In this document: positions 1,008-17,963 of the stretch, piece after piece
Position numbering within the stretch: the stretch's first letter is position 1
Layout: each line of letters starts with the position of its first letter
From: Calditrichota bacterium
Lineage (GTDB): Bacteria > Electryoneota > B3-LCP
Direction of reading: 5' to 3'
DNA: 36,244 bases
Assembly: GCA_020051775.1 (NCBI GenBank)
Contig: JAGVQJ010000176.1
Coordinates: 1 to 36,244, forward strand
Translations under genes and position numbers: made by a program
The notes under the pieces: model-generated
The model's input: the letters and a program-made list of their open reading frames with translations, nothing else
Told to the model about the DNA's origin: nothing
The model's database searches: none

Positions 1008-2060
1008 ATGGATATGTTCAATATATACCTGCCTATTGCAGGGATCGAATTTAACGTACTTCTGCTGTTGTTGATCGGAACAACAGTGGGCATCTGTGGA
1101 GGTTTTTTCGGGATTGGCGGCGCTTGGATTGTGACTCCGGCGCTGAATATCTTCGGGTTCCCCATGCCCTATGCCATCGGGACCGATCTGGCTCATATGG
1201 GCGGTAAATCCATTGTTTCGACAATCAGGCACAGCAAATTCGGCAACGTGGATCTGGCGCTGGGAGCTTCGATGATCCTCGGTACGACGGTGGGCATGGA
1301 GCTGGGTGCACGGTTGGTTATGCATCTGGAAAAGTTGGGTCTGGCTGAGTCGGTTATCCGTAAAATCTACATTATCTTCCTGTTTTTAATCGGCAGCTAT
1401 GTGCTTTATGATTACCTATCGCACATGGCCCGGCAAAGGAAGCTTCGCGCGGTCGGCGCACCAACGCCGCAACGCGCCAATATCGCGCAGAGGCTGCACC
1501 GTATCAATATCCCGCCCATGATCAATTTTCGGGCTTCCGGCGTCCGCTGTTCCATCTGGCTGCCGGTGCTCGTCGGTCTGTTGACGGGGGTTATCGCCAG
1601 TGTGCTGGGAGTAGGCGGCGGCTTCATTCGCATGCCTGCGCTGATTTATCTAATTGGTTGTCCTACATTGGTGGCTGTGGGTACCGATCTGTTCGAGGTG
1701 ATGATTACCGGAGCCTATGGCGCGTTCACGTATGGCGTCAAGGGACGAGTGGATTTGTTGGCAGCCATGTGGATGTTGATCGGTGCGGCAGTGGGAGCGC
1801 AATTGGGTACGGTGGCCGTCAAATACGTGCGCGGATATTCTATCCGGCTGCTCTTTGCCGTGACCATTTTCATCGCGTGTATCTCAGTGCTGTTGAAACA
1901 ACTCGACCTGCAATTGCCCTCCTCAATCATGATTCTGACGGCGGGCGTGGTCATCAGCTTGGTGATCATCGTCTGGCTGGTCAAAGGAGTTATAAGGGAG
2001 CGAGCCGCGACTCGGTCGGCCAACCAGAGTGTGTTGAAAACCGGAACGGAGCGACGATGA
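1008..2060 (+). CDS. TauE/SafE family anion exporter
   Basis: A 350-residue polytopic membrane protein with the internal duplication typical of the TauE/SafE (DUF81) family. GIGGAWIVTPAL (residues 35-46) in the first half is mirrored by GVGGGFIRMPAL (201-212) in the second, each followed by an A(I/V)GTDL motif. Family members move sulfite, sulfoacetate or other small organic sulfur anions out of the cell; the substrate here cannot be read from sequence. A cytoplasmic loop rich in basic residues (about 139-180) separates the halves. The frame extends upstream to a TTG at 981, but the ATG at 1008 has GGGGAGA at 996-1002 and is the better start. The stop overlaps the next gene (ATGA at 2057-2060), indicating translational coupling. 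Confidence 0.9.
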   Translation: MDMFNIYLPIAGIEFNVLLLLLIGTTVGICGGFFGIGGAWIVTPALNIFGFPMPYAIGTDLAHMGGKSIVSTIRHSKFGNVDLALGASMILGTTVGMELGARLVMHLEKLGLAESVIRKIYIIFLFLIGSYVLYDYLSHMARQRKLRAVGAPTPQRANIAQRLHRINIPPMINFRASGVRCSIWLPVLVGLLTGVIASVLGVGGGFIRMPALIYLIGCPTLVAVGTDLFEVMITGAYGAFTYGVKGRVDLLAAMWMLIGAAVGAQLGTVAVKYVRGYSIRLLFAVTIFIACISVLLKQLDLQLPSSIMILTAGVVISLVIIVWLVKGVIRERAATRSANQSVLKTGTERR

Positions 2061-2365
2061 TGAAGCAGACCCTGATTTTACTGACGATGGGATTATTTTT
2101 TTTAGCGGCCTGCGGAAAAGCGCCGGAAGTAATCCAAGGGGTAGTGACTGGCTACGATCCCGCCTCTAAAACCGTAATGCTGCAGGATGAGCAGGAACCG
2201 CATCGCGATCTTACCTTTTCGCTGCAACAGGCGGAAATTGGTGCAGAACCGGCGGTGGGAGACTCGGTGAGGCTTTCCTACCGCACTCAGGGGGAGACAC
2301 TCCTGGCTTTGCGGGTAATGAACCTGAGCCAACGCAGTGAATTACAGAAAAAGGGAAGTCACTAA
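2057..2365 (+). CDS. Small lipoprotein, third gene of the TauE operon
   Basis: A 102-residue protein with a lipoprotein signal peptide: MMKQTLILLTMGLFF followed by the lipobox LAAC (Cys19). The mature part, starting GKAPEVIQGVVTGYDPAS, is short and probably all-beta, with a GVVTGYDPASKTVML strand pair that resembles small OB-like periplasmic domains. I do not recognise a named family. It starts inside the TauE stop codon (ATGA overlap) with GGAG at 2048-2051, so it is translated with TauE and is probably a periplasm-facing partner of the exporter. Its stop codon overlaps the stop of the convergent gene on the other strand. Confidence 0.8.
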   Translation: MMKQTLILLTMGLFFLAACGKAPEVIQGVVTGYDPASKTVMLQDEQEPHRDLTFSLQQAEIGAEPAVGDSVRLSYRTQGETLLALRVMNLSQRSELQKKGSH

Positions 2366-4839
2366 AATTTGTCAAATTCGCCGGCCAGGAAGGCCTTGGC
2401 GAAGAATTCGGGGCTGCTGTCGGTGCGCATGAGCATATCCAATTGCCGGCAACAGAGTGTGATTCGCCCCAAATCCACCAAACGCTGCTGGGCTAACTCC
2501 CGATCGAGCTTTTCGAGCCGCGCGACGACGCCGTCGCCTCGGACCTGAACGCTGAAATGCAATGCCTTTAGCACCAGGGAGATGAATCGGCAGCGTCTCT
2601 CTCTGCGGACTTCGTCGGCTGCCCCGCCCTCAAACCGGAAGTGGATGTAATTCTTATTGACGTTTCTGCCACAGTAAGTATCCACGGTATTGAAGTGATA
2701 ACCGGCCTTGGTGCTGAAATTCATGTAGCGGTCGGATATCACCGCGAAAGAGGGTCGGCCTACACCCAGTTCTTCTGCGGGAAGCCCCGCAATACTTTCC
2801 CCCAACACTGAAAAGAAACCCCCTGCCGAAAGCGCCCGTGGCTGATTCCAACTGATGCGGTGATCTGAAAGCCCCGTCAGAAAGGAAATCGCCGGGGGCG
2901 AAACCACATCAGCCATGTTAATGCGCCGGTCATGGCTGGCCTGGTTGGATAACCCGCCGCCCAGATCGAAAACCAACACTCGAAAGGGGAGATTTTCTTC
3001 CAGGGTGGTTGAGGCCGGCTCCATGTTCAACGCCCGATCCCCAAAATAGAACATCACTTCGAAGAGCTTTTCGTGGATAAAACGGATAACGTCGTGCAAT
3101 GACTCTGCAGCAGAAGGCAGGAATTCCGGTGAATTGGCGTCCACCAGCTTCAGAGGGGTAATAAATTGCGCAATGCGCTTTAGCTTGGCCACCGCTGGTG
3201 AATTCACGATAGACTGCGCGTCATCAGGGCGGGCAGGCAGTTGTTGCAGACCTTCGAAGATTTGTAGGCCTCCCGTATCAACCGTTACTTCCAAACCCTG
3301 CGGTAATCGTAGTAAGGCGCCCTTTAATCCAACTATGGTTGGGACCTGAAACTCGCGAGCCAGTATCGCCATGTGCCCGATGGGGGAACCTTCTTCGGTG
3401 ATGATGGCGCTGCAATGATCCATAACCCGCGAATAGCGCGGCGAGGAGCGATGGGCGACCAGCACCGCGCCTTCTGGAAAACAATCCAGTTCGTTTTCAT
3501 CTTTCAAAACGAAAACTTTCCCGCATCCCACTCCAGGATAGGCTGTCGCCCCTCCCGCCAGAATTGCTTTCCGGACGCCCGCCTTTTCCGATATATTTAA
3601 GGCCGCCGGCTTCTTGATGAACACCATGGGGCGCGATTGTAAGACATTTATTCTGCCTCCCTGATCTATCGCCCATTCGACATCCTGTGGCGAACCAAAA
3701 TGAGCTTCCAGCTTGCGGGAAATGGCCGCCAGGGAGAGAGCCTCTTCCCGAGAAAGGCGCCGTAAGGGATCATCGCTCGTGATGATCCCCCTTGTAACCA
3801 GAACCTCTTCAGCATCTCCGGTTTCCGCAGAATCATCGCAGGCGGGGCCGACATAGGCGCTGATGACGGTCTTGTCCGCTTCAGGATCGTCGAAATATCG
3901 CGAGAACATCACACCCTGGCAACGGGATTTCACCATGCGGATACATCCGACGGCCATCAATGCGCTCGAATTGGATAACCCGTACATGTGCCGGTAACGG
4001 ACCGGGCCAGCTCCGTAGGCGCTGGCGACGACCCGACGGTAGGAGTCCAGCAGCGAAGCCTTGTCAACATTCAACTCGGTAGCGTACAATCCCGCATGGG
4101 ACGCTTCGCGGTCTTCTCCCAGACCGCTGCTGCGCACTGCAACTAAATCTTCACTATCGCCCATTAAGGACAGGTAGGCATTGGTTATCAAATTTTCCAG
4201 TTCCGTTGGCAGGGGAGTGACTGCGATTATTTCCTGCAATTCGCGACAGGCTTCTGACATGACTCGAGCGCCGAAGGTCTCGGTTAACTCTTCCAGTTTC
4301 TCGGCGCGATTGCCCAGTTCGGGGCGGTCCATAAATCCATTGAAAGCTGTGGCAGTGATGGCGAACCCATCCGGAACTTCCAGACCCATAACATTGCGGA
4401 TTTCCCCCAAGTTGGCCATCTTGTGACCGACAAGCGGAGCGTCGGTCTGGCGCAGGTCGGATAGTGGGATGATCAACGGTCCCGAAGGCGGGGCGGAAAA
4501 AGCAGCCAGGTGAAACTCGAAATCATGATTGATGCGGCGCATGCTATCGAACAGATCAAGATACCGTCCCCAGGCTAACTCGTTAAAATCCCGCACCATG
4601 ACATACACGTCCAGGATTCCCTTCCGCAGCAACCGCACCATGTGGTTGAAAGAGAAAGGGATCCGCCCGGAGAGGCGGTCATCAATATCAGCGATAAGTT
4701 GTAGCACGGAATCGTTGGTTGCCAGGATGTGGCGAAAAGTCTCATACATCTGGCGAAGGTGCTCGGCGTTATCAGTAGTGCTTATGACAACTTTCGCCTG
4801 GCGCCGCGCTGTGAGCCTTGCTTTGATTTTACGGATCAT
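2362..4839 (-). CDS. PEP synthase/PPDK-like protein with an unrecognised C-terminal domain
   Basis: An 825-residue cytoplasmic protein. Residues about 1-115 are an uncharacterised helical N-terminus. Residues about 130-405 are a PPDK-type ATP-grasp domain: GHKMANLGEI with Lys140, VAVRSSGLGED with Arg236, and LQSRPM at 400-405. Residues about 435-530 are the swivelling phosphohistidine domain, with GSPIGHMAILAREFQVP and catalytic-type His489. The C-terminal PEP/pyruvate-binding TIM barrel of true PEP synthase or PPDK is absent. Instead residues about 560-825 form a domain I do not recognise, with motifs such as VFDLGGGLSNQ and FEGGAADEVRRERR. It probably transfers phosphate from ATP through His489 to an unknown acceptor. 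It converges with the TauE operon. The ATG at 4837-4839 has no clear ribosome binding site, but a strong promoter lies just upstream. Confidence 0.8.
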   Translation of the reverse strand: MIRKIKARLTARRQAKVVISTTDNAEHLRQMYETFRHILATNDSVLQLIADIDDRLSGRIPFSFNHMVRLLRKGILDVYVMVRDFNELAWGRYLDLFDSMRRINHDFEFHLAAFSAPPSGPLIIPLSDLRQTDAPLVGHKMANLGEIRNVMGLEVPDGFAITATAFNGFMDRPELGNRAEKLEELTETFGARVMSEACRELQEIIAVTPLPTELENLITNAYLSLMGDSEDLVAVRSSGLGEDREASHAGLYATELNVDKASLLDSYRRVVASAYGAGPVRYRHMYGLSNSSALMAVGCIRMVKSRCQGVMFSRYFDDPEADKTVISAYVGPACDDSAETGDAEEVLVTRGIITSDDPLRRLSREEALSLAAISRKLEAHFGSPQDVEWAIDQGGRINVLQSRPMVFIKKPAALNISEKAGVRKAILAGGATAYPGVGCGKVFVLKDENELDCFPEGAVLVAHRSSPRYSRVMDHCSAIITEEGSPIGHMAILAREFQVPTIVGLKGALLRLPQGLEVTVDTGGLQIFEGLQQLPARPDDAQSIVNSPAVAKLKRIAQFITPLKLVDANSPEFLPSAAESLHDVIRFIHEKLFEVMFYFGDRALNMEPASTTLEENLPFRVLVFDLGGGLSNQASHDRRINMADVVSPPAISFLTGLSDHRISWNQPRALSAGGFFSVLGESIAGLPAEELGVGRPSFAVISDRYMNFSTKAGYHFNTVDTYCGRNVNKNYIHFRFEGGAADEVRRERRCRFISLVLKALHFSVQVRGDGVVARLEKLDRELAQQRLVDLGRITLCCRQLDMLMRTDSSPEFFAKAFLAGEFDKF

Positions 4840-4865
4840 GAGAGGATTAGAGCAGGATTATTAAT

Positions 4866-4894
4866 AATTTAATGAAATGAAGGGGGGATGTCAA
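4866..4894 (-). promoter_or_regulatory. Strong sigma-70 promoter of the PPDK-like gene
   Basis: TTGACA (4889-4894), a 17-bp spacer and TAAATT (4866-4871) on the minus strand, giving a leader of about 20 nt. It lies between the hemL relic and the gene at 4839. Confidence 0.65.
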
Positions 4895-4946
4895 GGATTG
4901 GATAATATAACCCTGGAGGCAATTGTGTAAATAATCGTTTGACTTT

Positions 4947-5045
4947 GAGTCGCACCTTCTGAACCGCCGGTACGCGGCGGACGATCTCAGCCGCCAATTC
5001 GACTTTCGACGGCGAAGGCGCCCCGAAGTTGGTTCCGCTTTTATA
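4947..5045 (-). pseudogene. hemL: Relic of hemL (glutamate-1-semialdehyde aminomutase), 33 codons
   Basis: Read on the minus strand in one frame, this stretch encodes YKSGTNFGAPSPSKVELAAE followed by IVRRVPAVQKVRL. This matches the conserved segment of glutamate-1-semialdehyde 2,1-aminomutase that precedes VNSGTEA (family pattern: SGTNFGAPTELEVELAELV, then VPSVEMVRFVNSG). Right after VRL the reading leaves the family (KVKRLFTQLPP), and before it only IPPL and a stop are found, so both flanks are lost. The enzyme normally makes 5-aminolevulinate, the substrate of HemB. The relic lies directly downstream of hemB, where hemL sits in many hemA-C-D-B-L clusters. It is too short to be called as an ORF. 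An assembly deletion is a less likely alternative. Confidence 0.8.
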
Positions 5046-5065
5046 AAGGGGAGGAATCAGTTAAG

Positions 5066-6046
5066 TCATTTATCGTTTCTTAACCACCCTGCCACTTCAC
5101 CCGCATAATATGTCAGAATGAAATCCGCTCCGGCGCGTTTGAAGGCCAGGAGTGTCTCCAAGATGACTCGCTGGCGGTCAATCCAACCGTTGTGGGCAGC
5201 GGCTTCGATCATGGCGTATTCCCCCGAAACCTGGTAGGCCGCGGTTACGCGATTAAAGGTCGCTTTAACCAACGCCAGCACGTCCAAGTAGGCGATCCCC
5301 GGCTTGACCATGATCATATCGGCGCCTTCCTCTAAGTCCAACTCGGCTTCACGCAGCGCTTCCAGCGCATTGCCGGGATCCATCTGATAACTGCACCGAT
5401 CCCCGAACTGCGGGGTGGAACCGGCCGCGTCTCGAAAAGGGCCGTAAAATCCAGAAGCGTATTTCACGGCGTACGACAGGATGGCGGTCTCGTGGAATCC
5501 ATTCTCATCCAGCGTCCGCCGAATGGTTGCAACACGGCCATCCATCATGTCCGAAGGTGCGATGAGATCTGCTCCAGCTTGGGCGTGACTCAAGGCCGTT
5601 TTCGCCAGCAGTTTCAACGTAAGGTCGTTGGACACGTCGCCCTGAGAGATGACTCCGCAATGTCCATGGCTTGTGTATTCGCACAAGCAGACATCCGTTA
5701 TTACCAGTAGATTCGGCGCAGCTTGTTTGATAGCTTGCACAGCGCCCTGCACGACCCCCTCGTCGTTCCAAGCCGAACTGCCCGAATCGTCCTTATGTTC
5801 GGGGATGCCGAAGAGGATGACAGCGGGCACGCCCCAGTCAGCCAAACGAGCCGCTTCTTCTGCGGCTCTGTCAACCGAGAGCCGGTATTGCCCCGGCATG
5901 GAAGCGATTTCCCTGCGCACGTTCTGTCCCGACATTACGAACAGCGGTTGCACCAAATCGTCAACTGAGAGGCGGGTTTCGCGCACCATGCGGCGCAGGG
6001 TTTCGCTGCGTCTTAAGCGGCGTGGACGGTCAGTGGGAAAGCTCAT
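5066..6046 (-). CDS. hemB: Porphobilinogen synthase (5-aminolevulinate dehydratase)
   Basis: A 326-residue full-length HemB, which condenses two 5-aminolevulinates to porphobilinogen in the cytoplasm. The active-site Lys248 lies in [12 protein letters not shown] and the second active-site lysine is Lys195 in [20 protein letters not shown]. Cys120, Cys122 and Cys130 ([14 protein letters not shown]) form the three-cysteine zinc site, so this is the zinc-dependent type. The ATG at 6044-6046 has TGGAGA at 6056-6061. It is the last intact gene of hemC-hemD-hemB, 153 bp after hemD, and is followed at once by the hemL relic. The assignment is secure. Confidence 0.97.
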
Positions 6047-6199
6047 GGCCTATTTTCTCCAGTATATTATTGAAAAGGGGCGCATCTGATGGAGTGAAGT
6101 TCATAACGATGTCTCACGCCGGCAAATTGTCGTTCCGCTCCGGCGGCAGGGCTAAAGAACCACCCCGTGCCATGAGCAGAGCAAGCGATGATTTTCCAA

Positions 6200-6940
6200 T
6201 TATTCAGTTATATTGGCTTTAAGAACTGCTGCTGTTACAGCCGCCGAATCAGGCCCGGCGCTGATGAAAATGTTTCCCGCTCCGATTTGGCGCAAAGCTT
6301 TGGCTGTTGACTCCCCGAAGGCTACACAAGCAAATGACCAGGGCGGCGGCCAAGCGGCGGCGAAGGCACTCACTGCGCTGGGAGCCGCGAACACGGCAAT
6401 ATTCCACGGTAGGTGTCGTTTCAACCGTAAGGAAAGGTCTTCAGGCGGAATTGCCACTGTGGTATAGCATTTCCAGGAAGTGACTTTGAGACCTCCGGCG
6501 ATCAGTATTTCTTTAAATTTTTCATCCGCTAACGATGAGCAAGCCCATAACAACGAATCGTCGGTCCGAAGGTTGGTTTTTTCAGTCAACCATCGTGCTA
6601 ATCCGATGGCGTTTGATTCGGGTCCGTGGACGACCGAGTCAAATATGTGTAATCGCTTCTCAAGTTCGGCAGCAGTAGCTATCCCAACAACTGCAAAGAG
6701 AATGTTGGTTGGTAATTCCAGTCTCTTCGCTTGCACAACGCTGGCGAAAGCGACTACGCCATGAACGCTGGTAAAAGCGATCCATGAGAACTCTCGCAAA
6801 TCAGGTAGAGGATTCTTCTGATGGAGATAAACTGTCTTTGTCACTGGTTCGACCAGAACGTCAATACCTTTTTCCACCAAAAGGTCAACCAATCCCCGCG
6901 CTCTCTCAGCGTCGCGTGTGATTAACACCCGAGCGCTCAT
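6200..6940 (-). CDS. hemD: Uroporphyrinogen-III synthase
   Basis: A 246-residue protein beginning MSARVLITRDAERARGLVDL, the usual start of HemD, which closes and inverts ring D of hydroxymethylbilane to give uroporphyrinogen III. Other family features are the two-domain length, WIAFTSVHGVVAF in the first domain (about residues 62-74), and AVFAAPSAVSAFAA with ACVAFGESTAKAL in the second. HemD diverges strongly, so position supports the call: it overlaps hemC by ATGA (6937-6940) and precedes hemB. The frame is open 39 codons further upstream inside hemC, but the ATG at 6938-6940 with GGGGAG just before it is the real start. Confidence 0.9.
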   Translation of the reverse strand: MSARVLITRDAERARGLVDLLVEKGIDVLVEPVTKTVYLHQKNPLPDLREFSWIAFTSVHGVVAFASVVQAKRLELPTNILFAVVGIATAAELEKRLHIFDSVVHGPESNAIGLARWLTEKTNLRTDDSLLWACSSLADEKFKEILIAGGLKVTSWKCYTTVAIPPEDLSLRLKRHLPWNIAVFAAPSAVSAFAAAWPPPWSFACVAFGESTAKALRQIGAGNIFISAGPDSAAVTAAVLKANITE

Positions 6941-7827
6941 GCACTCCCCTGGCTTAATTTGCCAAACAGGGCTTCGACAATTTCCGCAGGATCGTTCCCC
7001 ACGAAGCTGCTCCATACTGGTTTGCGGCCACCACCCCAGAATCCAAACGCATGCCAACTGTCGTTTTTAAAGCGAGCATAGACGCCCAGAGGTAATCCGC
7101 AACCGCCTCCAAAACGTCCCTGGACGGCCCGTTCAATGGTGGTTGCAGTAGCGGTAAGATTGTCATGCAGGGCGGTATGCACCGCTTGAAATTCGGGGGC
7201 CCCTTCCCGCATCTGAATAGCCAGCGCCCCTTGCCCCGGCGAGGGTATAAATCGCGATGGATCCATCCGTAATACAAAGTAACCCGACAAGTCGAGCTGT
7301 AGCCGGTTGACACCGGCCGCAGCCAGAAAAATTGAGTCATAGTGTCCTTTCGCCAACTTTGACAGTCGTGTGGGCACGTTGCCTCGCAGATCCTTCGACA
7401 CTATATCAGGCCGCATGGCTTTAAGCTGGGTTTCACGGCGCACTGCACTGGTGCCGACTACCGCACCGCCACGCAGGGGAATTTCGCCTTCTGTTTCGAG
7501 GTTGGATTCGGATCGGATGATCAAAAAGTCGGCGGGATCTTCTCGCTTTGAAACCGCCGCCAATGCTAAACCCTCTGGCGCCTTGGAAGGCATGTCCTTG
7601 AAGGAGTGCACCGCCACATCCACCGAACGATCCAGCAATGCCTCTTCGATTTCCTTAGTAAAATAACCCCTGCCTTCGAGCTCGCGCAAGGGCCGGTCGG
7701 TAATCCGGTCACCCTTGGTGCTGATAATCTTCAACTCAACCTGCCGCCCCATTTTTTGTCCTAGAACGGCGGCAACGTACATTGCTTGACACTTGGCTAA
7801 ATCGCTGCCTCTGGTGCCGATGATCAT
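6937..7827 (-). CDS. hemC: Hydroxymethylbilane synthase (porphobilinogen deaminase)
   Basis: A 296-residue HemC, which polymerises four porphobilinogens into hydroxymethylbilane. It begins MIIGTRGSDLAKCQA and has VAVHSFKDMP with catalytic Asp78, LRGNVPTRL at about 147-155, and GGGCGLPLGVYA with Cys243, the attachment site of the dipyrromethane cofactor. The ATG at 7825-7827 is chosen over one eight codons upstream because GGGGAG (7832-7837) precedes it and the family starts at this point. The stop overlaps hemD. No hemA lies upstream, where many clusters carry it; the next upstream gene is a tRNA. No strong promoter was found in 7828-8071, only an isolated TTGACT at 7964-7969. Confidence 0.96.
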   Translation of the reverse strand: MIIGTRGSDLAKCQAMYVAAVLGQKMGRQVELKIISTKGDRITDRPLRELEGRGYFTKEIEEALLDRSVDVAVHSFKDMPSKAPEGLALAAVSKREDPADFLIIRSESNLETEGEIPLRGGAVVGTSAVRRETQLKAMRPDIVSKDLRGNVPTRLSKLAKGHYDSIFLAAAGVNRLQLDLSGYFVLRMDPSRFIPSPGQGALAIQMREGAPEFQAVHTALHDNLTATATTIERAVQGRFGGGCGLPLGVYARFKNDSWHAFGFWGGGRKPVWSSFVGNDPAEIVEALFGKLSQGSA

Positions 7828-8071
7828 ACCTCTCCCCAAGAAGGTGAGCATGAATTTCGAAATGCGTCAATAAGGTAAACCCTGACTGGAAGCAGTTTGA
7901 TCCGAGGGGCGCTTGGAAATTAATATCGTACCACGCTATCAGCTAAACTTATCTTCATGACTCAGTCAAGCACTTTTTCGTAAATTTGATGCTGCTCAGC
8001 TCATTTGCTCCCCTCCTGAAGTGTCGCGCAAGCCCAATGCAACACCAATCCACCTCCCCCTTTAGATACGA

Positions 8072-8096
8072 AAATCCGCCTGTAATAGGCGGATTT
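8072..8096 (-). terminator. Terminator downstream of tRNA-Gln
   Basis: A perfect 10-bp stem (AAATCCGCCT / AGGCGGATTT) with a 5-nt loop. On the minus strand it starts 19 nt after the tRNA and ends in a short run of T. It probably ends the tRNA transcript before hemC. Confidence 0.75.
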
Positions 8097-8114
8097 CCAA
8101 AGGATTTAAGCTTG

Positions 8115-8185
8115 CTGGGATGCAGGGATTCGAACCCCGATACCATGATCCAGAGTCATGTGTCCTGCCGTTGGACGACATCCCA
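8115..8185 (-). tRNA. tRNA-Gln (anticodon CUG)
   Basis: The minus strand folds as a complete cloverleaf: acceptor stem TGGGATG/CATCCCA, D stem GTCC/GGAC, anticodon stem CATGA/TCATG with loop CTCTGGA giving anticodon CTG, and T stem CGGGG/CCCTG with loop TTCGAAT. The discriminator is G. The CCA tail is not encoded (the next bases are CAA), so it must be added after transcription. It has its own promoter and terminator. Confidence 0.95.
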
Positions 8186-8197
8186 GTATAACCTTGC

Positions 8198-8226
8198 AAT
8201 ATAAGGAATTAAACCGCTTTTGTCAA
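8198..8226 (-). promoter_or_regulatory. Consensus promoter of tRNA-Gln
   Basis: TTGACA (8221-8226), a 17-bp spacer and TATATT (8198-8203), with the -10 box 13 bp from the tRNA 5' end. This pins down the -10 preference of the housekeeping sigma factor in this genome. Confidence 0.8.
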
Positions 8227-8246
8227 GGGGGTATGGTCACAATTAT

Positions 8247-9032
8247 TTATGGCTGCAATCGCCGTACGGCCAACAGCGCTGCGCCCAAAGCTCCCACAAA
8301 CTGCGGCTGCGGAGGGACCAGAACTTTCACCCCTAAAACCTCTTCCAAGGATCGCACCATCGCCGCATTTTGTCCGACGCCTCCGCTAAATCCCAGGTCA
8401 GCTTCCACGCCCAAACCTTCTGCCATGCGCACGACTCTGGCAGCGATAGCGTTATGCAGGCCACGCGCGATCTCATTCATCTCACGACCTTCCGCCAGCA
8501 GGCTGATTGCCTCGGATTCCGCAAACACTGTGCACATACTGGAAATCCTCGCCGCAGATTTGGCCGTCAACGCCTGTTCAATGAACATATCAAGCGGTAA
8601 ATCCAACCCTTGAGCAGTCATTTCCAGGAATTTCCCCGTTCCGGCAGCGCAACGATCATTCATGGCAAAATCCAACACCAAGCCACCCTCATCCAAGCGG
8701 ATTACTTTGGAATCCTGCCCGCCGATATCAATCAATGTGCGCACGCCCGGTAAATGAAAGGCAATGCCTCGCGCGTGACAGGCGATTTCAGTGAACTGTT
8801 CATCGGCTATTTCGGTTACAGCGCTGTGAATGCGACCATAGCCCGTCGCAACGATGCGTTGTACTTGCACTCGATCCAAATTCGCCGTCATAAGCGCATC
8901 CGCCAGGGTTTCCCGCGCCATCGCCGAAGGCAGCCATCCAGTTTTCGCCAGTGCCATTCCTACGATCTGGCTGTCGCGTAAGATCAACGCCTTGGTCGTA
9001 CGTGAACCGATATCCAATCCGGCGGTAATCAT
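8247..9032 (-). CDS. BadF/BadG/HgdC-type ATPase, [4Fe-4S] activator
   Basis: A 261-residue ASKHA-fold ATPase of the family that reductively activates 2-hydroxyacyl-CoA dehydratases, benzoyl-CoA reductases and some corrinoid enzymes. It begins MITAGLDIGSRTTKALIL (phosphate-1 loop) and has DIGGQDSKVI at 102-111 and GFSGGVGQNAAMV at 214-226. Cys128 (NDRCAAGTG) and Cys167 (SSMCTVFAESE) are the two ligands that let a dimer hold one shared [4Fe-4S] cluster. It starts inside the stop of the upstream UroD-like gene (ATGA, 9029-9032), so translation is coupled. No dehydratase subunit of the HgdAB type lies beside it, so the UroD-like neighbour is the likeliest partner (inference). Confidence 0.92.
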   Translation of the reverse strand: MITAGLDIGSRTTKALILRDSQIVGMALAKTGWLPSAMARETLADALMTANLDRVQVQRIVATGYGRIHSAVTEIADEQFTEIACHARGIAFHLPGVRTLIDIGGQDSKVIRLDEGGLVLDFAMNDRCAAGTGKFLEMTAQGLDLPLDMFIEQALTAKSAARISSMCTVFAESEAISLLAEGREMNEIARGLHNAIAARVVRMAEGLGVEADLGFSGGVGQNAAMVRSLEEVLGVKVLVPPQPQFVGALGAALLAVRRLQP

Positions 9033-10093
9033 AATTCCTCGGCCCAATATCGCCCAAGTTTCCGGCCTTCTTCCACAAACGCCAGCACGTTTTCCTGCGG
9101 CGCCAGGATGGGGACTTCGCAGCCCGTTGACAGCACAAATCCCTTGGGATTGTCCTTACCCGCAGCCATTATATCGGCTACTTTTCTCCGGATAGTACCA
9201 GGATCATCTTGCAAGAGATCCGTAGGCCGAAGGTTGCCGATAATGCGCGTCCGAGCGCCGATATTATTACGGCATAAAGACATAGGGATGTCATCGCAGG
9301 AAAACAGATCGCATTGCGTCTTGAGGATCCCCTCTAATATCGGTTCACTGCGTCCACAGATATGCAGGAATACGTCGAAATCGCTGCGGTGAAGATGATC
9401 GCTGAAGGTTCGCAAATAGGGTTCGGCGAAATCGTGAAAGACCTGCGGCGAGATCACCGAAGCAGACGCCAACGGGTCCACCAGCATGGGGACAGCGCCC
9501 GCGTCAATGCACAAGTCAGTGAAGGCCAGAGCCGCCCGCAGACTCAAATCCAGCAGACTATGACAGGCCGCAGGATCCAACAAGGTATCCACCAGGAAAT
9601 CTTCGGTGCCGCGCAGCAGTGCTGCCGTCGTAAACGGAGCCGGGATGAACACCATGACCGGAGTCACGTCGCCGACCTCACGTTGGCAGGAGGCAATGGC
9701 GTCTATATAGACCGAATACCGTCCGGGAAGGCTCTCGGCGTCGGGAAGTTTTAGATCTTGCCACGCTACACCGGAATCCAGGGCGGGCTGTTGTAATACA
9801 GGTACGTCATCGTCGCGAAAGAACAATTTCGATCCCAGCGCTTCTGCCACCATTCCCACGTCGGAGAAGATCGAGACGGCGTCGTGCTTGTATCGCCGCA
9901 GAGCCGCAACCTGTGCTCGCGCCATGGCTTTGCCGTCGGTAACATACTCCAGCAGACCCATACCGGCTACGGCGGCGGCGTGCGAACTGACCAGTGGATA
10001 CACCACGACGCGGTCGGGGATCTCGTCAATCAGCAGCAGCGACATGCGCTGGCGGGAGTTCAATGGTTCGTAGCGGTAGAAGGATTGGTTCAT
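9029..10093 (-). CDS. UroD-superfamily methyltransferase-like protein (MtaA/MtbA type)
   Basis: A 354-residue TIM-barrel protein of the uroporphyrinogen decarboxylase superfamily. The N-terminal arginine motif (RQAGR) of true HemE is absent. The zinc ligands of the corrinoid:thiol methyltransferases are present: His244 and Cys246 in FLHICGRSEPILEG, and Cys325 in VLSTGCEVPILAPQENV. It therefore more likely moves a methyl group between a corrinoid and a thiol than decarboxylates a porphyrin, despite lying near hem genes. The ATG at 10093 is preferred; the frame is open another 40 codons, but those residues look non-coding. The ribosome binding site is poor: the nearest AGGA is 17 bp away. It is coupled to the BadF-type ATPase downstream. 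Confidence 0.85.
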   Translation of the reverse strand: MNQSFYRYEPLNSRQRMSLLLIDEIPDRVVVYPLVSSHAAAVAGMGLLEYVTDGKAMARAQVAALRRYKHDAVSIFSDVGMVAEALGSKLFFRDDDVPVLQQPALDSGVAWQDLKLPDAESLPGRYSVYIDAIASCQREVGDVTPVMVFIPAPFTTAALLRGTEDFLVDTLLDPAACHSLLDLSLRAALAFTDLCIDAGAVPMLVDPLASASVISPQVFHDFAEPYLRTFSDHLHRSDFDVFLHICGRSEPILEGILKTQCDLFSCDDIPMSLCRNNIGARTRIIGNLRPTDLLQDDPGTIRRKVADIMAAGKDNPKGFVLSTGCEVPILAPQENVLAFVEEGRKLGRYWAEEL

Positions 10094-10220
10094 TATCGCA
10101 TTTGAAAATATCCTCTTAAATATAACTACGTAACAAGGTAAATGGTTGAAGAAAGTTGTGGAAAATGAGGTTAAAGTTGGGGGGATGAGTATACCGACAG
10201 ATGGCTGGCTCAAAAGGTGA

Positions 10221-10244
10221 AGGGGCGTTCAATTGAACGCCCCT
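10221..10244. repeat. Perfect 24-bp palindrome
   Basis: AGGGGCGTTCAA followed by its exact reverse complement. It lies in the gap upstream of the UroD-like gene and is of the AGGGGCG...CGCCCCT type, similar in layout to the element at 18046-18071. It looks like an interspersed palindromic repeat rather than an operator. Confidence 0.7.
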
Positions 10245-10266
10245 ACTGTCTCGTGTTCCCTTCAAG

Positions 10267-10293
10267 AAAGGGGTGCATACCGTGCAGCCCTTT
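10267..10293 (-). terminator. Possible terminator after the exported protein gene
   Basis: An inverted repeat AAAGGGGTGCA / TGCAGCCCTTT with one mismatch and a 5-nt loop, about 50 bp after the stop of the gene at 10343. The T run is weak. Confidence 0.4.
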
Positions 10294-10342
10294 TGCTATC
10301 ATCCGCAAACTCGCGAAGCTGTTTGTGTAAAGAGTAGCGCAA

Positions 10343-12706
10343 CTACTTCATAAGGACCATCTTACCTGTAGCGGAATACGACCCAGCTTGCAGGGTGTAG
10401 AGATACACGCCCGAAGACAGGTTCGATCCGTCGAAGGTGACCTGGTGCTGGCCGGCTTCACGCAGACCGTTGACCAGGGTGGCGACCAAGCGGCCCTGCA
10501 CGTCGAAGACGTTCAGGGTCACTTGGACCACTTCCGGCAGAGAGAAGCTTAAAGTAGTGGCCGGATTGAATGGGTTGGGATTGGCGCCTACCATGGCAAA
10601 GGTGGCCGGAGCCGAAATCATGATCTCACCGGGGAATGGTTCACCGGAGCAGAGGTTATCCCACACCATCGGACCGCCGTTGGCAACGGCTGTCTTCGTG
10701 AAAGTGAAGAAGCTGCTGTCAATGGCCGGGTAAGTGAATGTAGTGTTAACGTAACCCAGGTATGTGGTTACTCCGGCCGGATGGGAGGCGGCGATATTCT
10801 GGTTACGCAATCGAGTGATGGTCGTTCCCACGGGCGGATTGATCTGCACCGGGCCTAAGGTGGGATTGCTGTAGGTGCCGTTGGGGTACTTCATGCGGGC
10901 CCAACCATAGAAGTATGCTTGCGGGCCGGTGGTGCGCTGCACGGCAGCGTTGAACTGAAAGCTGCCACCGTTTGCCGGAATAACGATAGGCGGATTTTGC
11001 GGAGTCATAATCACTACGATTGGCGGCGTGTCACTTTCGAAATAATCCAAGATATTATAGAGGATCCCGCGTGAGATCAAGGTGTCAACCGTGGCCTCCA
11101 GAATCCAGGGCAGGAAGACCATCTTATACGCGCTCTCGTAGCGGATACCCGCGGATTCGTAATCAATCTGAGTGCGGAAACAGGTTGCCGCACCCAACCT
11201 GGGATTGGCGAAGTCGTTGTAGTTGGGACTGGGTCGGTTATGGAAATACTCCGTCGCATAAGGAGCTGAAACAGGATCACCGAGCACACCAATGTACATC
11301 GTGTCATTTGATTCGCCGGTTGAGAAGTTTAAGTGCGAATCCGACCAGCCATTCAATACGTGCAGGTATTCGTACATAAACGTACCTGGTGGAGCTATAA
11401 ACTCTGTCCAGACACCGGAACCACCGAAGGCGCCGCCCAGATAGTCCGAACTGGACAGAAAGAAATGTCCTCCGCCATCCATGAAGTTGGCCACGGGATC
11501 GAGGTGTAGATTGGCATTATTTTTCGGGAGTGTGCCACTATTGGCCTCGCCGGTAAACCACAACACCTTGGAGTAGATATTGGGATTTACAACGTCCGAG
11601 CCGGGATAGCCCTGATCACCCGGTTCGCCGGGGCGAATCACCCAGAGGTCAAATGCAAAGATTCCTTGATTCAGGCAGTTTGTGTAAAAGCTCTGATGAC
11701 TGTTTTCTGCTCCATCGTTAACCAGTAGTATGGAGGCTCCGCTGGGCTGAAGGTAGGAAAATTGATACCCTCCATCGTGAGGTGCTATGGTTGTATGACC
11801 GCTACTATCTTGAGCCACAACCCTGTAATTGATGATGGTCCAAGTTGCCACACTCGGTATCGCCCCTTGATAAGTTGAATCTGAAATGTGAGTCATGGGG
11901 ACTTCAACCCAGGGCCCGTTGTTCACGGAATAGTGCAAATTCGCCTGTGTTATTTGCCCTTGTCCACCACCTTGGCTATGATCAGTTATAAAAGCGCTGA
12001 TGACGTAGGGGCCTGGGGTATAGGTATCCGAACGATCTACCAAGCCGGAAATAGTCGGCGGTGGATCACCGTACAGGTTCACCTGGGCTCGGATCATCCA
12101 GTCAATACCGTAAGCATACCAGCCGGGCTGGGTACTATAAAGCCCACCGGGAGTAGTCAGGTAGGCAAGGCTATGATAGGGTCGCTCATCGCCTGCATCG
12201 CCTAAGAGTGAAGGGTAAAAGGGTTGCTGCCCGCCGCCCGTCAGGACATATCCGAGATAGAACTTGCGAGTTCCGACGTCCATCTCATCCGGAGTGAAAC
12301 CATAAGTGCTGAAGTTGAGGGACTGCCAGGTCCCGCTGTTGTCGAAATTGTACGGAATAGGCCCGGCAATAACAGTATCCAGCAGTGTGGGGCCGGGACC
12401 GCCGCCAGGTTCATCATTGTCGTAATAATTATCGGGATCGAATGTGCGGACCAATCCCCAGACATAAACCAGCCCTGGTCCGCCCATGTCATTATTGAAC
12501 ATGAAGCGCCCCTGTAGGATTTGCGCTTCCGTGGGTGGTTCGAACCAGACACCGCAGGTGTCTCCGGGATCGGGGCGGCCGGAATAGTACGCGGTAGTAC
12601 CATCATCGTACTGAAGCCAGACAACTTGTTGCGCAAAGAGGGGAGAAATCAAGGCGATCGGGAGAACTGTGATCACGGCCAGGAAGGAAGCGCGAGGGGA
12701 AAGCAT
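10343..12706 (-). CDS. Large exported protein with C-terminal sorting domain
   Basis: A 787-residue protein with a signal peptide (MLSPRASFLAVITVLPIALI, cleavage probably after LFA|QQ). The middle holds an Ig-like stretch (about residues 215-330) and a region starting ASILLVNDGAENSHQSFY and containing VLWFTGEANSG. This resembles the ThuA/GATase-like folds in exported proteins of FCB bacteria, but no catalytic residues can be assigned. Residues about 563-787 are an NPPIVIPA-GGSFQFN Ig-like domain followed by a T9SS-type sorting domain (ANPNPFNPATTLSFSLPE ... SSGVYLYTL). The ATG at 12704-12706 with GGAGG six bases upstream is preferred over an in-frame start 17 codons earlier. The C-terminal part is nearly identical to that of the neighbour at 12959. 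Confidence 0.85.
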   Translation of the reverse strand: MLSPRASFLAVITVLPIALISPLFAQQVVWLQYDDGTTAYYSGRPDPGDTCGVWFEPPTEAQILQGRFMFNNDMGGPGLVYVWGLVRTFDPDNYYDNDEPGGGPGPTLLDTVIAGPIPYNFDNSGTWQSLNFSTYGFTPDEMDVGTRKFYLGYVLTGGGQQPFYPSLLGDAGDERPYHSLAYLTTPGGLYSTQPGWYAYGIDWMIRAQVNLYGDPPPTISGLVDRSDTYTPGPYVISAFITDHSQGGGQGQITQANLHYSVNNGPWVEVPMTHISDSTYQGAIPSVATWTIINYRVVAQDSSGHTTIAPHDGGYQFSYLQPSGASILLVNDGAENSHQSFYTNCLNQGIFAFDLWVIRPGEPGDQGYPGSDVVNPNIYSKVLWFTGEANSGTLPKNNANLHLDPVANFMDGGGHFFLSSSDYLGGAFGGSGVWTEFIAPPGTFMYEYLHVLNGWSDSHLNFSTGESNDTMYIGVLGDPVSAPYATEYFHNRPSPNYNDFANPRLGAATCFRTQIDYESAGIRYESAYKMVFLPWILEATVDTLISRGILYNILDYFESDTPPIVVIMTPQNPPIVIPANGGSFQFNAAVQRTTGPQAYFYGWARMKYPNGTYSNPTLGPVQINPPVGTTITRLRNQNIAASHPAGVTTYLGYVNTTFTYPAIDSSFFTFTKTAVANGGPMVWDNLCSGEPFPGEIMISAPATFAMVGANPNPFNPATTLSFSLPEVVQVTLNVFDVQGRLVATLVNGLREAGQHQVTFDGSNLSSGVYLYTLQAGSYSATGKMVLMK

Positions 12707-12815
12707 AATAACCTCCACATGGAACCGGGTGAGTATTAACAGAAGCCAAAGCGTCATGCTTTAGCAAGAGCTTGCAGGACGATTGAGATCGGATTAAAAG
12801 GACGTATTAGACTAC

Positions 12816-12844
12816 AATATAGGTAGAAAAATGCTCAGAAGCAA
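12816..12844 (-). promoter_or_regulatory. Promoter of the exported protein gene at 12706
   Basis: TTGCTT (12839-12844), a 17-bp spacer and TATATT (12816-12821), giving a leader of about 100 nt. Confidence 0.6.
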
Positions 12845-12884
12845 GTGCAATAAATTGCGTATTCAACAATATGTAAAATAAATA

Positions 12885-12907
12885 GGAGCGACCCATCGGA
12901 TCGCCCC
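12885..12907 (-). terminator. Terminator after the 947-residue protein gene, possibly bidirectional
   Basis: Stem GGAGCGA / TCGCCCC with one mismatch and a 9-nt loop. It is followed by TATTTATTTT on the minus strand and by TTTTT on the plus strand. Confidence 0.55.
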
Positions 12908-12919
12908 TTTTTGTTTCAG

Positions 12920-12943
12920 CGCAAGATCGTGTAGCATCTTGCG
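12920..12943 (-). repeat. 3'-UTR hairpin shared by the twin exported protein genes
   Basis: CGCAAGAT / ATCTTGCG, an 8-bp perfect stem with an 8-nt loop, 15 bp after the stop codon. The twin gene has CGCAAAC / GTTTGTG at the equivalent place (about 10307-10330), so the stem is kept although the sequence differs. Confidence 0.5.
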
Positions 12944-12958
12944 TAAAGAGTAGCGCAG

Positions 12959-15802
12959 CTACTTCATCAGCACCATCTTACCCGTGGCGGAATACGATCC
13001 GGCGGTCAGGGTGTACAGATACACGCCTGAAGAGAGGTTCGATCCGTCGAAGGTGACCTGGTGCTGGCCGGCTTCACGCAGGCCGTTGACCAGGGTGGCG
13101 ACCAGGCGGCCCTGCACGTCGAAGACGTTCAGAGTCACGCGGGCCACTTCCGGCAGAGAGAAGCTTAAAGTAGTGGCCGGATTGAACGGGTTGGGATTGG
13201 CGCCCACCATCGCGAAGCTGGCCGGAGCCGAAACCATGATCTCGCCTGGGAACGGTTCGCCTGAGCAGAGGTTATCCCACACCATCGGACCGCCGTTGGC
13301 AACGGCTGTCTTCGTGAAAGTGAAGAAGCTGCTGTCAATGGCCGGGTAGACCTGCGAAGCGGTGTTGGCATAGCCCAGGTATGTGGTTACACCGGCCGGA
13401 TGGGAGGCGGCGATATTCTGATTGCGCAACCGGGTGATGGTGGCGCCCACCGGCGGATTGATCTGCACCGGGCCTAAGGTTGGGCCGCTGTAGGTTCCGT
13501 TGGGGTATTTCATGCGAGCCCAGACGTAGAAGGGAGCCTGCGGCCCTACGGTACGGACTACTGTGGCATTGAATTGGAAGCTGCCGCCACCCGCCGGAAT
13601 GACGATGGGCGGATTGACCGGCGTCAAGGTGACGTCCAGGGCGGGTGCTGCAGTGGAGGTGTTGAACACCGCGCGAGCGAAGAAGTCGTAATCAGACGCC
13701 GTCATTCCGCTGCCGAAATTGGCGAAGAAATGACCAGCGCCATTGACGATGTCATCGCCCAGAATGTGCGCGCTGGAGGTATCAATCATTTCGTAGAATA
13801 CCCAGAAGTCGGTGTGGGTATTCTGCAGGTAGGAAACACCCGTCAGGGAGAATTGCTGCCAGTTCGGTGTGACCGAAGTAACATTGGCGGTAAAGTTGGT
13901 CACTTCCGGGCCGGGTGTGGTGGCCGTGCCGGGCTGGTAGATATGGATGCGGATAGAACCCGCGTCCATGAATCTCGCCCGCAAGTACTGAGCGTTCATG
14001 TTGAAGTTGCAACCGTCGGCTGTGGGTGTGTACTTAACGTAGGCGCCTTCGCCCGGGTCAAAGTTGAAGTAGTAATTGCTCTCATACCCGTACTGGCGGT
14101 TGTCGTAACCGAATTCAAAGACGTTGGCTGCCGTCAGTTCAACCGTACCGGCCTTGGCGCTGTCGTTGGTATGGAGCATATCCGAAGTCAGCGCAGTCCA
14201 GGAGTCGAAGTAGTAGTTACCGACAGCGGGGGTGACCCAGTTAAAGGTCTTGGTTACAAACTGCCCAGCATTGATCGAAGCCCAGGGAATCAGCGGAGTA
14301 CCCGTGCCGTAATTGACGCGCCAGAAAGCCGGAACCATGGGTTCGTTGTTGGTGCCGAAATTGTGCAGACGCACCGAGCAATGAATGGTGTCGAAATAGA
14401 CCGAAGTTGGCATGGGAACCAACAAGTTCTTGGCGCCCACGTCATGGGCCAAACCGGCTATCGAGTAAACCCGGAAATTGTCAATCATCATGCCGTAGCC
14501 GAGGTAGTTGTCCGGATCGGCCTGGAAATAAACACGAATCTTGATGTTGTATCCGGCATAATCCGACACGTCCACACCATTGGTCATGCCCGACCAAACT
14601 CCCAGCGAATCCCAACCGACGGGTAAGCTGGAGAATACATAGTGCAGAGCGCCCTGATTCCAGGGATCGTTCCAGTTGTACCAATGTACGCCGTTATCCG
14701 GGGAGACTTCGATGGTCCAGATATCCAGATCCGGGAAGGGTTGCGGATCGCCAACATTGATGTTGCCATGATGGAAGAACATGGCATAGATGTCGGCCGA
14801 ACCCGGTTGAATGCCCGTTAGGTTGATGTTGGGTGAAACGATCGCGCAATAGGTCATGGGCAAATAGCTGTTCTGGGCATTGGCCATCCAAGCGACATGA
14901 GTCGGCGAAGGAGGCGTGGGATATGGAGCGCCGATGGCGGCTACGTGCCAGAAATTACCCACCGGGGTCATAGCCGGTGTGGGAATCATCTGGCTGGGGA
15001 CGGCGATGCCTTCCGCGTTGTTCTGCAGTAGGGTCGTAACACCCGCCTGGATCAGCACGTTATCCACAAACATGCCGCGCAGAGTGGAGTCCTGAGCGGT
15101 GCTGTAAGCCGGGTCGGAGCACATGGCGAAGCGAATCTTCACCTGAGCATTGCCGACGTAAGCCGACAAGCTCTTGCTGGCGTTAACCCAAGCTCCGGGG
15201 GAAACGCCGCCCGAATATCCACCCCAACCGGCGATGCCGGGGCCCATGCCGAATTCATACCCGAAGGCATAGGAACTGGTCATGTTGTAAGCGGGGGTGG
15301 GACTGGGCAGAACCGACCAAGTGGAACCGTTATTGGTGGAAATCCAAATGTTGCAGGCGTCCCAGCCGTCGTACGGGGGTGTGGCGCCGGGTGGGGTTTC
15401 CACAGAATGGAACAGGTTGAACGTCAGCGTGGGATTGACCGCGCCGACTAAGCTGAACGTAGGGCTGACGAGGTATTCCAAAGTGTGGTCGCGATACCCC
15501 ATGATGGTGGTGTCGCCTGACCACCAGGACAGCGTGCTGCCGCCGCCGGTGTAATGATTGTAATCATCAATGTGCCAGAGGGCGGGGGCGTCGGTCAAGT
15601 CCACGAAGGTCCAGCCGGGCGCGCCCGATTCGAAGTTTTCAAAGAAGATGATGCTGTCGGTCTCGTCAATCGCCGGATCCGGAGTTGCCGGGATGGCGGC
15701 TGCGCGAGTCGCGAGGGGGGTGAAAGTACCGACAGTGTTGGCTAAAGCCTGAGTTCCAAACAGCAAACCCAGACAGAGCATAAAGAATACTGTCTTTCGC
15801 AT
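12959..15802 (-). CDS. Large exported protein with MAM-like repeats and C-terminal sorting domain
   Basis: A 947-residue protein with a signal peptide (MRKTVFFMLCLGLLFGTQALA). Two beta-rich units of the kind seen in immune-inhibitor-A/MAM-like domains follow: one with FFENFESGAPGWTFVDLTD and LEYLVSPTFSL near residues 53-115, and a second near 290-440 with YWYNWNDP-like and MMIDNFRVYS elements. A CARDB-like stretch (VGAKNLLVPMPTSVYF) comes next, and a C-terminal 225-residue block almost identical to that of the gene at 10343, ending in the T9SS-type sorting domain. No catalytic site was seen, so an adhesin or structural surface role is likeliest. The ATG has AGGAGG nine bases upstream, a strong site. 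The gene has a long leader. Confidence 0.88.
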   Translation of the reverse strand: MRKTVFFMLCLGLLFGTQALANTVGTFTPLATRAAAIPATPDPAIDETDSIIFFENFESGAPGWTFVDLTDAPALWHIDDYNHYTGGGSTLSWWSGDTTIMGYRDHTLEYLVSPTFSLVGAVNPTLTFNLFHSVETPPGATPPYDGWDACNIWISTNNGSTWSVLPSPTPAYNMTSSYAFGYEFGMGPGIAGWGGYSGGVSPGAWVNASKSLSAYVGNAQVKIRFAMCSDPAYSTAQDSTLRGMFVDNVLIQAGVTTLLQNNAEGIAVPSQMIPTPAMTPVGNFWHVAAIGAPYPTPPSPTHVAWMANAQNSYLPMTYCAIVSPNINLTGIQPGSADIYAMFFHHGNINVGDPQPFPDLDIWTIEVSPDNGVHWYNWNDPWNQGALHYVFSSLPVGWDSLGVWSGMTNGVDVSDYAGYNIKIRVYFQADPDNYLGYGMMIDNFRVYSIAGLAHDVGAKNLLVPMPTSVYFDTIHCSVRLHNFGTNNEPMVPAFWRVNYGTGTPLIPWASINAGQFVTKTFNWVTPAVGNYYFDSWTALTSDMLHTNDSAKAGTVELTAANVFEFGYDNRQYGYESNYYFNFDPGEGAYVKYTPTADGCNFNMNAQYLRARFMDAGSIRIHIYQPGTATTPGPEVTNFTANVTSVTPNWQQFSLTGVSYLQNTHTDFWVFYEMIDTSSAHILGDDIVNGAGHFFANFGSGMTASDYDFFARAVFNTSTAAPALDVTLTPVNPPIVIPAGGGSFQFNATVVRTVGPQAPFYVWARMKYPNGTYSGPTLGPVQINPPVGATITRLRNQNIAASHPAGVTTYLGYANTASQVYPAIDSSFFTFTKTAVANGGPMVWDNLCSGEPFPGEIMVSAPASFAMVGANPNPFNPATTLSFSLPEVARVTLNVFDVQGRLVATLVNGLREAGQHQVTFDGSNLSSGVYLYTLTAGSYSATGKMVLMK

Positions 15803-16052
15803 CGTGAGCTTCCTCCTTTAGGTTTGGGTTGTGACGAAAAATGAGCATGCTCTATATTTGAACGAGAATTGGATGTGCGGGACGCACCATTTTGCGCGTA
15901 CCAGTCGCATCACCGGAGATTGGCCTCCCGTGATGGGGTTGATTGAACTTTACGGGATGTGTAGATACAGAAGTTATCCGGAAAGCGGCAGGGTTTTGCC
16001 GGTGGTGTTATGTTTCACGTCAACCGTGCTGTGATCGCCTCCAGGAGCAACT
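15803..16052 (-). promoter_or_regulatory. Long 5' leader with several hairpins, candidate structured RNA
   Basis: This is the 350-bp gap between two exported protein genes, mostly the transcribed leader of the gene at 15802. On the minus strand it contains an 11-bp stem with one mismatch and a 6-nt loop (CATCACGGGAG / CTCCGGTGATG, 15908-15935), a GTGCG/CGCAC hairpin, a CGGCA/TGCCG hairpin, and a CCCGT that could pair with the ACGGG of the main stem as an alternative fold. It ends in a strong ribosome binding site. No known riboswitch class was recognised, and the small ORFs crossing it look non-coding. Confidence 0.45.
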
Positions 16053-16058
16053 GATTAG

Positions 16059-16087
16059 AATATACATAAAATATGCGTAAAAGTCAA
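16059..16087 (-). promoter_or_regulatory. Promoter of the gene at 15802
   Basis: TTGACT (16082-16087), a 17-bp spacer and TATATT (16059-16064), about 255 bp ahead of the start codon. Confidence 0.65.
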
Positions 16088-16154
16088 GCTCAATCTTGCG
16101 AGGATCTCCATTTGGGGCATGATTGCCTTTAATAATCTCCGATCTTTCGCGATA

Positions 16155-17816
16155 TTATCGCACCACCACCGCTTTCTTCACTGCCACCTGCTCGCCTGCC
16201 TGCAATTGAAGGAAGTATACTCCCGCCGGCAACGAGCTTTGATCGAGGCGTATAGCGTGTTGGCCGTCCGTTTTGTATCCCTCTTCTAATACTGACATTC
16301 TGCGTCCCAAGAGGTCATAAAGTTCCAATTTGATTTGTCCAGCTTTCGGTAAGGTGTAGTTCATCCCATTGAAAGATAAGCCGGAAACCACCGATTGGGG
16401 TTGAGGCATGATTTTGGAGGGTGTGCCTAAACTGCCGTCGGCATTGACTCGCTGGGCGGAAATGTCAATACCGGTAGTGGTTCCAAAACGAACGTCTTCA
16501 AGAGCAACTACGGCTCCGTCATTTCCATCTGAAGTAGCGACCCGGGGACCGATAATAGGTCCGCCGCCGGGAGTTTCCCCACCGATGGCCACAAGGCTTT
16601 GCCAGACCAGATTACCGCTATTGTCAACGCGATAAGCCTTGACACGGGTTATATCCGGATTCGGGGTATAGGTAAAATCAAGGAGCAGGCTGATCATGCC
16701 CTCGGCAACGGGTACCAAAATACCTCCATAAGGACGTCCATTAGGCGAAAATAATAGATTACCGTCAAGATCCCAGCGGTACAAACGATCCACAAAATTT
16801 TCTGATTCCCAGAGCCAGATTGATCCCTCCACGGGGTGGCGTAACAGGTTGCCATATCCGTGTTCGTTGAAATTAGGACTGGTCCAGAGCCAGCGTACCC
16901 GATAGTGCCCGCCAGAGTATGAAATCCGCATCACCTTGAAGTAATTATTGTAACCGGAAGTGTTCCAGGTCCAAACGCCTCCGCCCCGGCCGTCCGAAAC
17001 GCCTTCCTGCAATCCCCCGGCGCTGATTTGGAAGTTATTGTAGAGAATGGGCGTCCCATTCAATTCCAGCATGGGGAGGCCGTCCGGGTCAAGATGCTGA
17101 GTGTAAAGTTTGTAATTGTTGGCCAGGGAGCGGTCGTCTTGCCAGACCACGATCAGGCCACCTGAATTGTCGGCTACAATTTGCGGATAGGCTTGATTGT
17201 GTGATTCAACGCTCACCGCCACGCCGTATTCGCCCCATAGGCGCTGTCCATCTCGGTTAAATTTCTGCGCGTAGAGATCAGCGTTGCTGCCGGAGACTTG
17301 CATGCCCCAAACGAAGAAAAAATTCCCCGCTGAATCTCCCACCAAATCCTGCAGCACCATGTCTTGGGTTCCGGGCCAAACGGCAAGCGGCACGCCCGTG
17401 GATCCCCACTGGGGGTCGCCCTGGCTGTTGAAGCGTTGGCCGTAAATGTTCTCGACGCCATTGCGGTCATCGCCAAATATCACGATGGCGCCGCCCTGAG
17501 AATCAGATATTGCAGAGTACACACCGTACGTCCAGGACGCCTCAATGACATTTTGCCCGGTCGGACCGAGCAAGGGATTGCCCCGTTGATCCAACACCTG
17601 GTATTTTGAATGTGATCCATTGTAGGGTCGATCCCAGACAATGAAAGTAGATCCTGAAGACAGCCCGACAACTAAAGGATCAACATCTGACCCTGTTTCG
17701 TTGGTTACTATGGCCATCCCCTCCACCGGGTCGTTGGTCCAACCCCAGGCGTGTGCCGGGCATGGCGCGGCCAGCCACGCGGCGGCCAGCAGCAGTATTA
17801 GGGTAGTGGTTTTCAT
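16155..17816 (-). CDS. Exported repeat protein with C-terminal sorting domain
   Basis: A 553-residue protein with a signal peptide (MKTTTLILLLAAAWLAAP, cleavage near AHA|WGW). The body is built of repeated blades with the pattern D-x-R-N/S...IYGQRFNSQGDPQWG, seen near residues 115-150, 210-245 and again near 435-465 (EDVRFGTTTG ... SAQRVNADGS). This is typical of propeller-like exported proteins in FCB bacteria. The last 80 residues are a sorting domain (LPKAGQIKLELYDLLGRRM ... SSLPAGVYFLQLQAGE, ending KKAVVVR). No enzyme motif was seen. There is no clear ribosome binding site before the ATG at 17814-17816, but a perfect promoter lies about 120 bp upstream. Confidence 0.85.
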   Translation of the reverse strand: MKTTTLILLLAAAWLAAPCPAHAWGWTNDPVEGMAIVTNETGSDVDPLVVGLSSGSTFIVWDRPYNGSHSKYQVLDQRGNPLLGPTGQNVIEASWTYGVYSAISDSQGGAIVIFGDDRNGVENIYGQRFNSQGDPQWGSTGVPLAVWPGTQDMVLQDLVGDSAGNFFFVWGMQVSGSNADLYAQKFNRDGQRLWGEYGVAVSVESHNQAYPQIVADNSGGLIVVWQDDRSLANNYKLYTQHLDPDGLPMLELNGTPILYNNFQISAGGLQEGVSDGRGGGVWTWNTSGYNNYFKVMRISYSGGHYRVRWLWTSPNFNEHGYGNLLRHPVEGSIWLWESENFVDRLYRWDLDGNLLFSPNGRPYGGILVPVAEGMISLLLDFTYTPNPDITRVKAYRVDNSGNLVWQSLVAIGGETPGGGPIIGPRVATSDGNDGAVVALEDVRFGTTTGIDISAQRVNADGSLGTPSKIMPQPQSVVSGLSFNGMNYTLPKAGQIKLELYDLLGRRMSVLEEGYKTDGQHAIRLDQSSLPAGVYFLQLQAGEQVAVKKAVVVR

Positions 17817-17846
17817 GGGTCGTTTCGCTTACACATTTTCTGGGCT

Positions 17847-17904
17847 GTCACGGTCCATACCGTGACGGCTTCGTTGGTCCAGCGTCACGGATTGGTCCGT
17901 GACG
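17847..17904 (-). repeat. Two related hairpins in the leader of the gene at 17816
   Basis: GTCACGG/CCGTGAC with a 6-nt loop (17847-17866) and CGTCACGGA/TCCGTGACG with a 4-nt loop (17883-17904). They share the GTCACGG core and both lie between the promoter and the start codon. Confidence 0.6.
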
Positions 17905-17934
17905 ACGCTCCAGGAAATGATGATCCGGCAAGAT

Positions 17935-17963
17935 AATATAATCAATTCTCGCGCCGCTGTCAA
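17935..17963 (-). promoter_or_regulatory. Consensus promoter of the gene at 17816
   Basis: TTGACA (17958-17963), a 17-bp spacer and TATATT (17935-17940), the same boxes as the tRNA promoter. Confidence 0.75.

Follow-up and report, generated by a model that had tools for sequence, protein, structure and literature searches.

Remnants of hemL and hemA on either side of hemB, a legible case of heme cluster decay in a bacterium of a little-known phylum

The decay of bacterial operons commonly leaves short pieces of genes in place beside their surviving neighbours, with functional copies carried elsewhere in the genome. The locus described here lies in a window of 36,244 nucleotides, positions 1 to 36,244 of contig JAGVQJ010000176.1 from a draft Calditrichota genome (Electryoneota in the GTDB lineage), and is the same in principle as such remnants. 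It is ordinary gene decay that happens to be unusually legible, as two relics flank hemB here and one of them carries the likely ribosome-binding site of that gene. The closest described systems are two enzymes of tetrapyrrole synthesis. The first is HemL (glutamate-1-semialdehyde 2,1-aminomutase, TIGR00713), with which 32 residues encoded just beyond hemB can be aligned, in the place that hemL occupies after hemB in relatives of the phylum; unlike HemL, the piece amounts to about 8% of the protein, has neither a start codon nor the PLP-lysine region, and is altered at two near-invariant residues. The second is HemA (glutamyl-tRNA reductase, of the cluster type of the phylum), whose last 36 codons are present in frame and with the usual overlap with hemB, but with an internal stop and no catalytic region; the hemA that works in this genome is a divergent gene on another contig (C169). 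Decay of this hem cluster is not evident in the titles and opening lines of abstracts returned by literature searches, which is no proof of its being undescribed.

The ancestral gene order is provided by the relatives. Within the stretches fetched, hemL lies downstream of hemB and on the same strand in 18 of the 26 hemB-bearing genomes, and G002, which shares the family but not the genus of the present organism, carries the complete, colinear cluster hemC-D-E-N-H-G-ccsA-A-B-L. The same order is largely complete in G013, G024, G032 and one Zixiibacteriota genome. The HemL segment of another relative, G025, is identical to that of a locus from Candidatus Hatepunaea meridiana, a bacterium assigned by NCBI to Candidatus Electryoneota, which is therefore probably the phylum concerned. 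An earlier note, made from the sequence of the window, had placed the locus at the end of a former hemC-D-B-L cluster; the end of a hem cluster it is, yet the cluster was the longer one, and the losses from this locus extend beyond those noted to hemE, hemN, hemH, hemG, ccsA and hemA. Only hemC, hemD and hemB survive in the window, all on the minus strand. Both hemC (hydroxymethylbilane synthase, 6937..7851; TIGR00212, 279.9 bits, above the cut-off of 164) and hemB (porphobilinogen synthase, 5066..6046; NF006762, 513 bits, above the cut-off of 297) are intact. The hemD gene (uroporphyrinogen-III synthase, 6200..7057) is divergent: it matches NF004593 with E = 1.3e-13, below the curated cut-off, its product is 41-42% identical to the cluster HemD of relatives, and translation may actually begin further inside, near 6940. 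In relatives whose hemB has no adjoining hemL, comparable relics were sought at the loci examined and none was convincing. Two kinds of hemB occur within one family, the gene of the present genome (G000) being 75-77% identical to that of another family and 58-61% identical to those of G001, G003, G004 and G005; this division, with G000 and G002 on one side and the other four genomes on the other, hints at cluster transfer or replacement.

The segment at 4947..5042 on the minus strand is very probably the in-situ leftover of the hemL that once ended this cluster. Its translation, read from 5042 to 4947, is KSGTNFGAPSPSKVELAAEIVRRVPAVQKVRL, which corresponds to HemL residues 80-111 and covers about positions 79-113 of the HemL profile. 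A search of the segment against 18950 NCBIfam models returned HemL models only (NF000818, E = 2.5e-5; TIGR00713, E = 9.6e-5). When the intact HemLs of relatives were compared with the non-coding DNA of the window, the same segment was matched, with a best E of 3e-9 for the G013 protein, and no second HemL piece was found there, except for one match at chance level. The remnant starts 23 bases past the stop codon of hemB, a place at which residues 1-79 of HemL would be expected, and it ends directly before VNSGTEA, both HemL flanks being missing. The earlier note had proposed just such a minus-strand relic, stripped of its flanks and immediately preceding VNSGTEA; profile and relatives' proteins bear this out, the matching part being 32 codons instead of the 33 (4947-5045) given there. 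The piece is short, and one might suspect a chance resemblance to HemL, but the matches refute this reading, as do a place and strand that are those of the intact hemL in relatives, and its probability is negligible.

As a HemL, the segment would not be functional. Only residues 80-111 are present, without the PLP lysine region, and the TIGR00713 score is 21.2 bits against a curated cut-off of 527.3. Besides the deleted flanks, lost constraint is seen in the absence of any in-frame ATG, GTG or TTG upstream of the remnant and in the alteration of a serine that all 49 intact HemL segments share and of a glutamate present in 48 of the 49. On the other hand, decay would be recent or have hardly begun, because the 32 codons hold neither stop nor frameshift and the third codon positions are more variable than the first two; the profile score of the remnant also exceeds those of the four worst of the 49 intact segments. 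Most of the divergence looks constrained, and the altered serine and glutamate fit, as expected, a constraint lost late. It is conceivable that the piece persists because it has a role itself, whether as a small peptide or as an RNA element, given that the frame around it stays open over 63 codons and that a short G+C-rich hairpin lies within it. Yet the start codon is missing, the segment folds no better than its shuffles (z = -1.4), a terminator-like site is absent there, and the genome holds no second copy at the DNA level, all of which makes such a role very improbable indeed.

A trace of another lost cluster gene is present at its expected place, on the opposite side of hemB. The last 36 codons of a cluster-type hemA, with an internal stop, are found at 6033..6140 on the minus strand (tblastn over the whole window, E = 0.003). 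They lie in the spacer between hemD and hemB, and their frame overlaps the hemB start, as that of the intact hemA does in relatives. A shuffle test was limited to the 31 codons outside hemB, since the final residues lie inside hemB and are conserved for the sake of that gene; none of 20000 dinucleotide shuffles did as well (z = 6.1), in a test that was run after the match had been seen and that was anchored on the hemB start, as set by the relatives. Within the tail, CTGGAGAAAATAGGCCATG places the motif GGAG 10 nt upstream of the hemB start, where it is likely to serve as the ribosome-binding site of hemB. The tail may have been retained because it carries this site.

With its cluster hemL reduced to a remnant, the organism had been expected to rely on another hemL, on ALA synthase or on scavenged ALA. 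The first expectation held. An intact hemL is found on contig C149 (423 residues, 615.2 bits; TIGR00713 cut-off 527.3), where it comes after a gene that has no neighbouring hemL in the five family members fetched. The divergent hemA on contig C169 scores 275 bits, and its product is about 28-32% identical to cluster HemA. With a hemA and a hemL in the genome, nothing is missing from the glutamate route to ALA, and neither ALA synthase nor scavenged ALA is required. The ALA synthase route was rejected, the genome search having returned only relatives that fall below the cut-off.

The age of the two hemL copies can be gauged from their divergence. The remnant is 56% identical in residues to the intact C149 copy and 62-66% identical to the HemLs of G002 and G013, figures that are rough for a comparison over 32 codons. 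Third codon positions approach saturation, with an identity of 0.38 between remnant and intact copy and, measured along the entire gene, of 0.45 for the pair of intact HemLs from G000 and G002; this speaks against a recent separation of the copies. An identity to the intact copy as low as 56% makes it improbable that the remnant stems from a recent duplication. Either both copies coexisted for a long time, or the intact one has its origin in a relative. The latter is a variant of the preferred account, in which the C149 hemL was acquired from a relative within the phylum and the native hemL beside hemB became redundant and turned into a relic. The lower similarity of the remnant to the intact copy than to G002 and G013, the lack of a neighbouring hemL beside the counterparts, in five family members, of the gene adjoining the C149 copy, and the likewise divergent working hemA all point this way. 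However, the intact HemL groups with its counterpart in G002, a fellow member of the family, and its pattern of similarity is that of HemB. Moreover, in the HemL tree the remnant is best placed beside G013, but making it the sister of the intact copy costs 4.4 log units and is not rejected (AU p = 0.154). Displacement of the native hemL is thus a real possibility, from which we lean slightly away.

On the downstream side of the remnant, the promoter-like site that the earlier note had seen about 50 bp away is present as TTGACA-17-TAAATT (4866..4894, minus strand), a match to the consensus only, at 10 of 12 positions. It stands before the gene that now follows the remnant, which encodes a PEP-synthase-like protein with PPDK_N and PEP-utilizers domains (2362..4839, minus strand); the best relative of this protein in the 40 genomes searched is 34% identical. 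Because the gene is without a close relative in these genomes, it is plausible that the loss of hemL created the present gene order, and the arrival of the gene and the loss of hemL may have been one event. The lack of a close relative could also be expected if the locus were an assembly artefact, the hemL by hemB being really intact and having been lost through a false join or a collapsed stretch in a draft genome of 196 contigs. Yet one false join accounts for one missing flank, not for both, and an artefact leaves unexplained the hemA tail with its stop across hemB, the altered near-invariant residues and the intact hemL lying inside another contig. G+C is also even across the site, and we consider an artefact highly unlikely.

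In the draft genome, no match was found for hemH and none above the cut-off for hemE, absences that are provisional at a completeness of 94.7%. The better hemE match is the URO-D-family gene at 9029-10213, which falls below the hemE cut-off; its product may presumably be a corrinoid methyltransferase-type enzyme instead of HemE. The alternative heme route through AhbD gained no support, as the cut-off of 500 bits was not approached by any of the radical-SAM matches. A single one of these proteins was scanned, and a different radical-SAM family gave it the higher score. In contig C186 (stretch 8000-27999, at positions 1419-10266 of that stretch), dsrA and dsrB are found together with a cobB-type amidase, a cobA-hemD fusion and a siroheme synthase N-terminal domain. 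The fusion constitutes a second HemD domain beside the hemD of the window. These genes make dissimilatory sulfur metabolism probable in the organism, and the simplest reason for retaining hemA, L, B, C and D is plausibly the supply of uroporphyrinogen III for siroheme.

Altogether, a history can be proposed in which the protoporphyrin part of the cluster would have been deleted, leaving the tail of hemA before hemB, while the hemL copy after hemB would have been trimmed from both sides down to 32 functionless codons. ALA would then be made with the divergent hemA and the intact hemL of contig C149, and hemC, hemD and hemB would provide uroporphyrinogen III, whose most likely use is the siroheme in dissimilatory sulfite reductase. 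In its broadest form, the proposal is that the lineage once had the whole protoporphyrin heme cluster and then turned to a tetrapyrrole supply centred on siroheme, serving dissimilatory sulfite reduction; a divergent gene would have replaced hemA and a long-separated copy hemL, with scars left flanking hemB. This scenario we put forward tentatively and hold to be somewhat short of probable. The locus would record, in a little-known phylum, how a heme-synthesis operon decayed near the time of its loss. Here, classical heme synthesis can no longer be read off from the hem genes that survive, a point of consequence wherever heme or respiratory capacity is deduced from gene lists, and a hemL match adjoining hemB need not be a working hemL.

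Other genes of the minus strand extend the locus beyond hemC. A BadF/BadG-type ATPase and the URO-D-family protein are encoded directly upstream of hemC (8247-10213). Further upstream are two adjoining genes for large proteins (10343-12757 and 12959-15802), which have in common matches at the C-termini of proteins encoded in several other loci, the pattern that sorting signals would give. Both large proteins are probably secreted.
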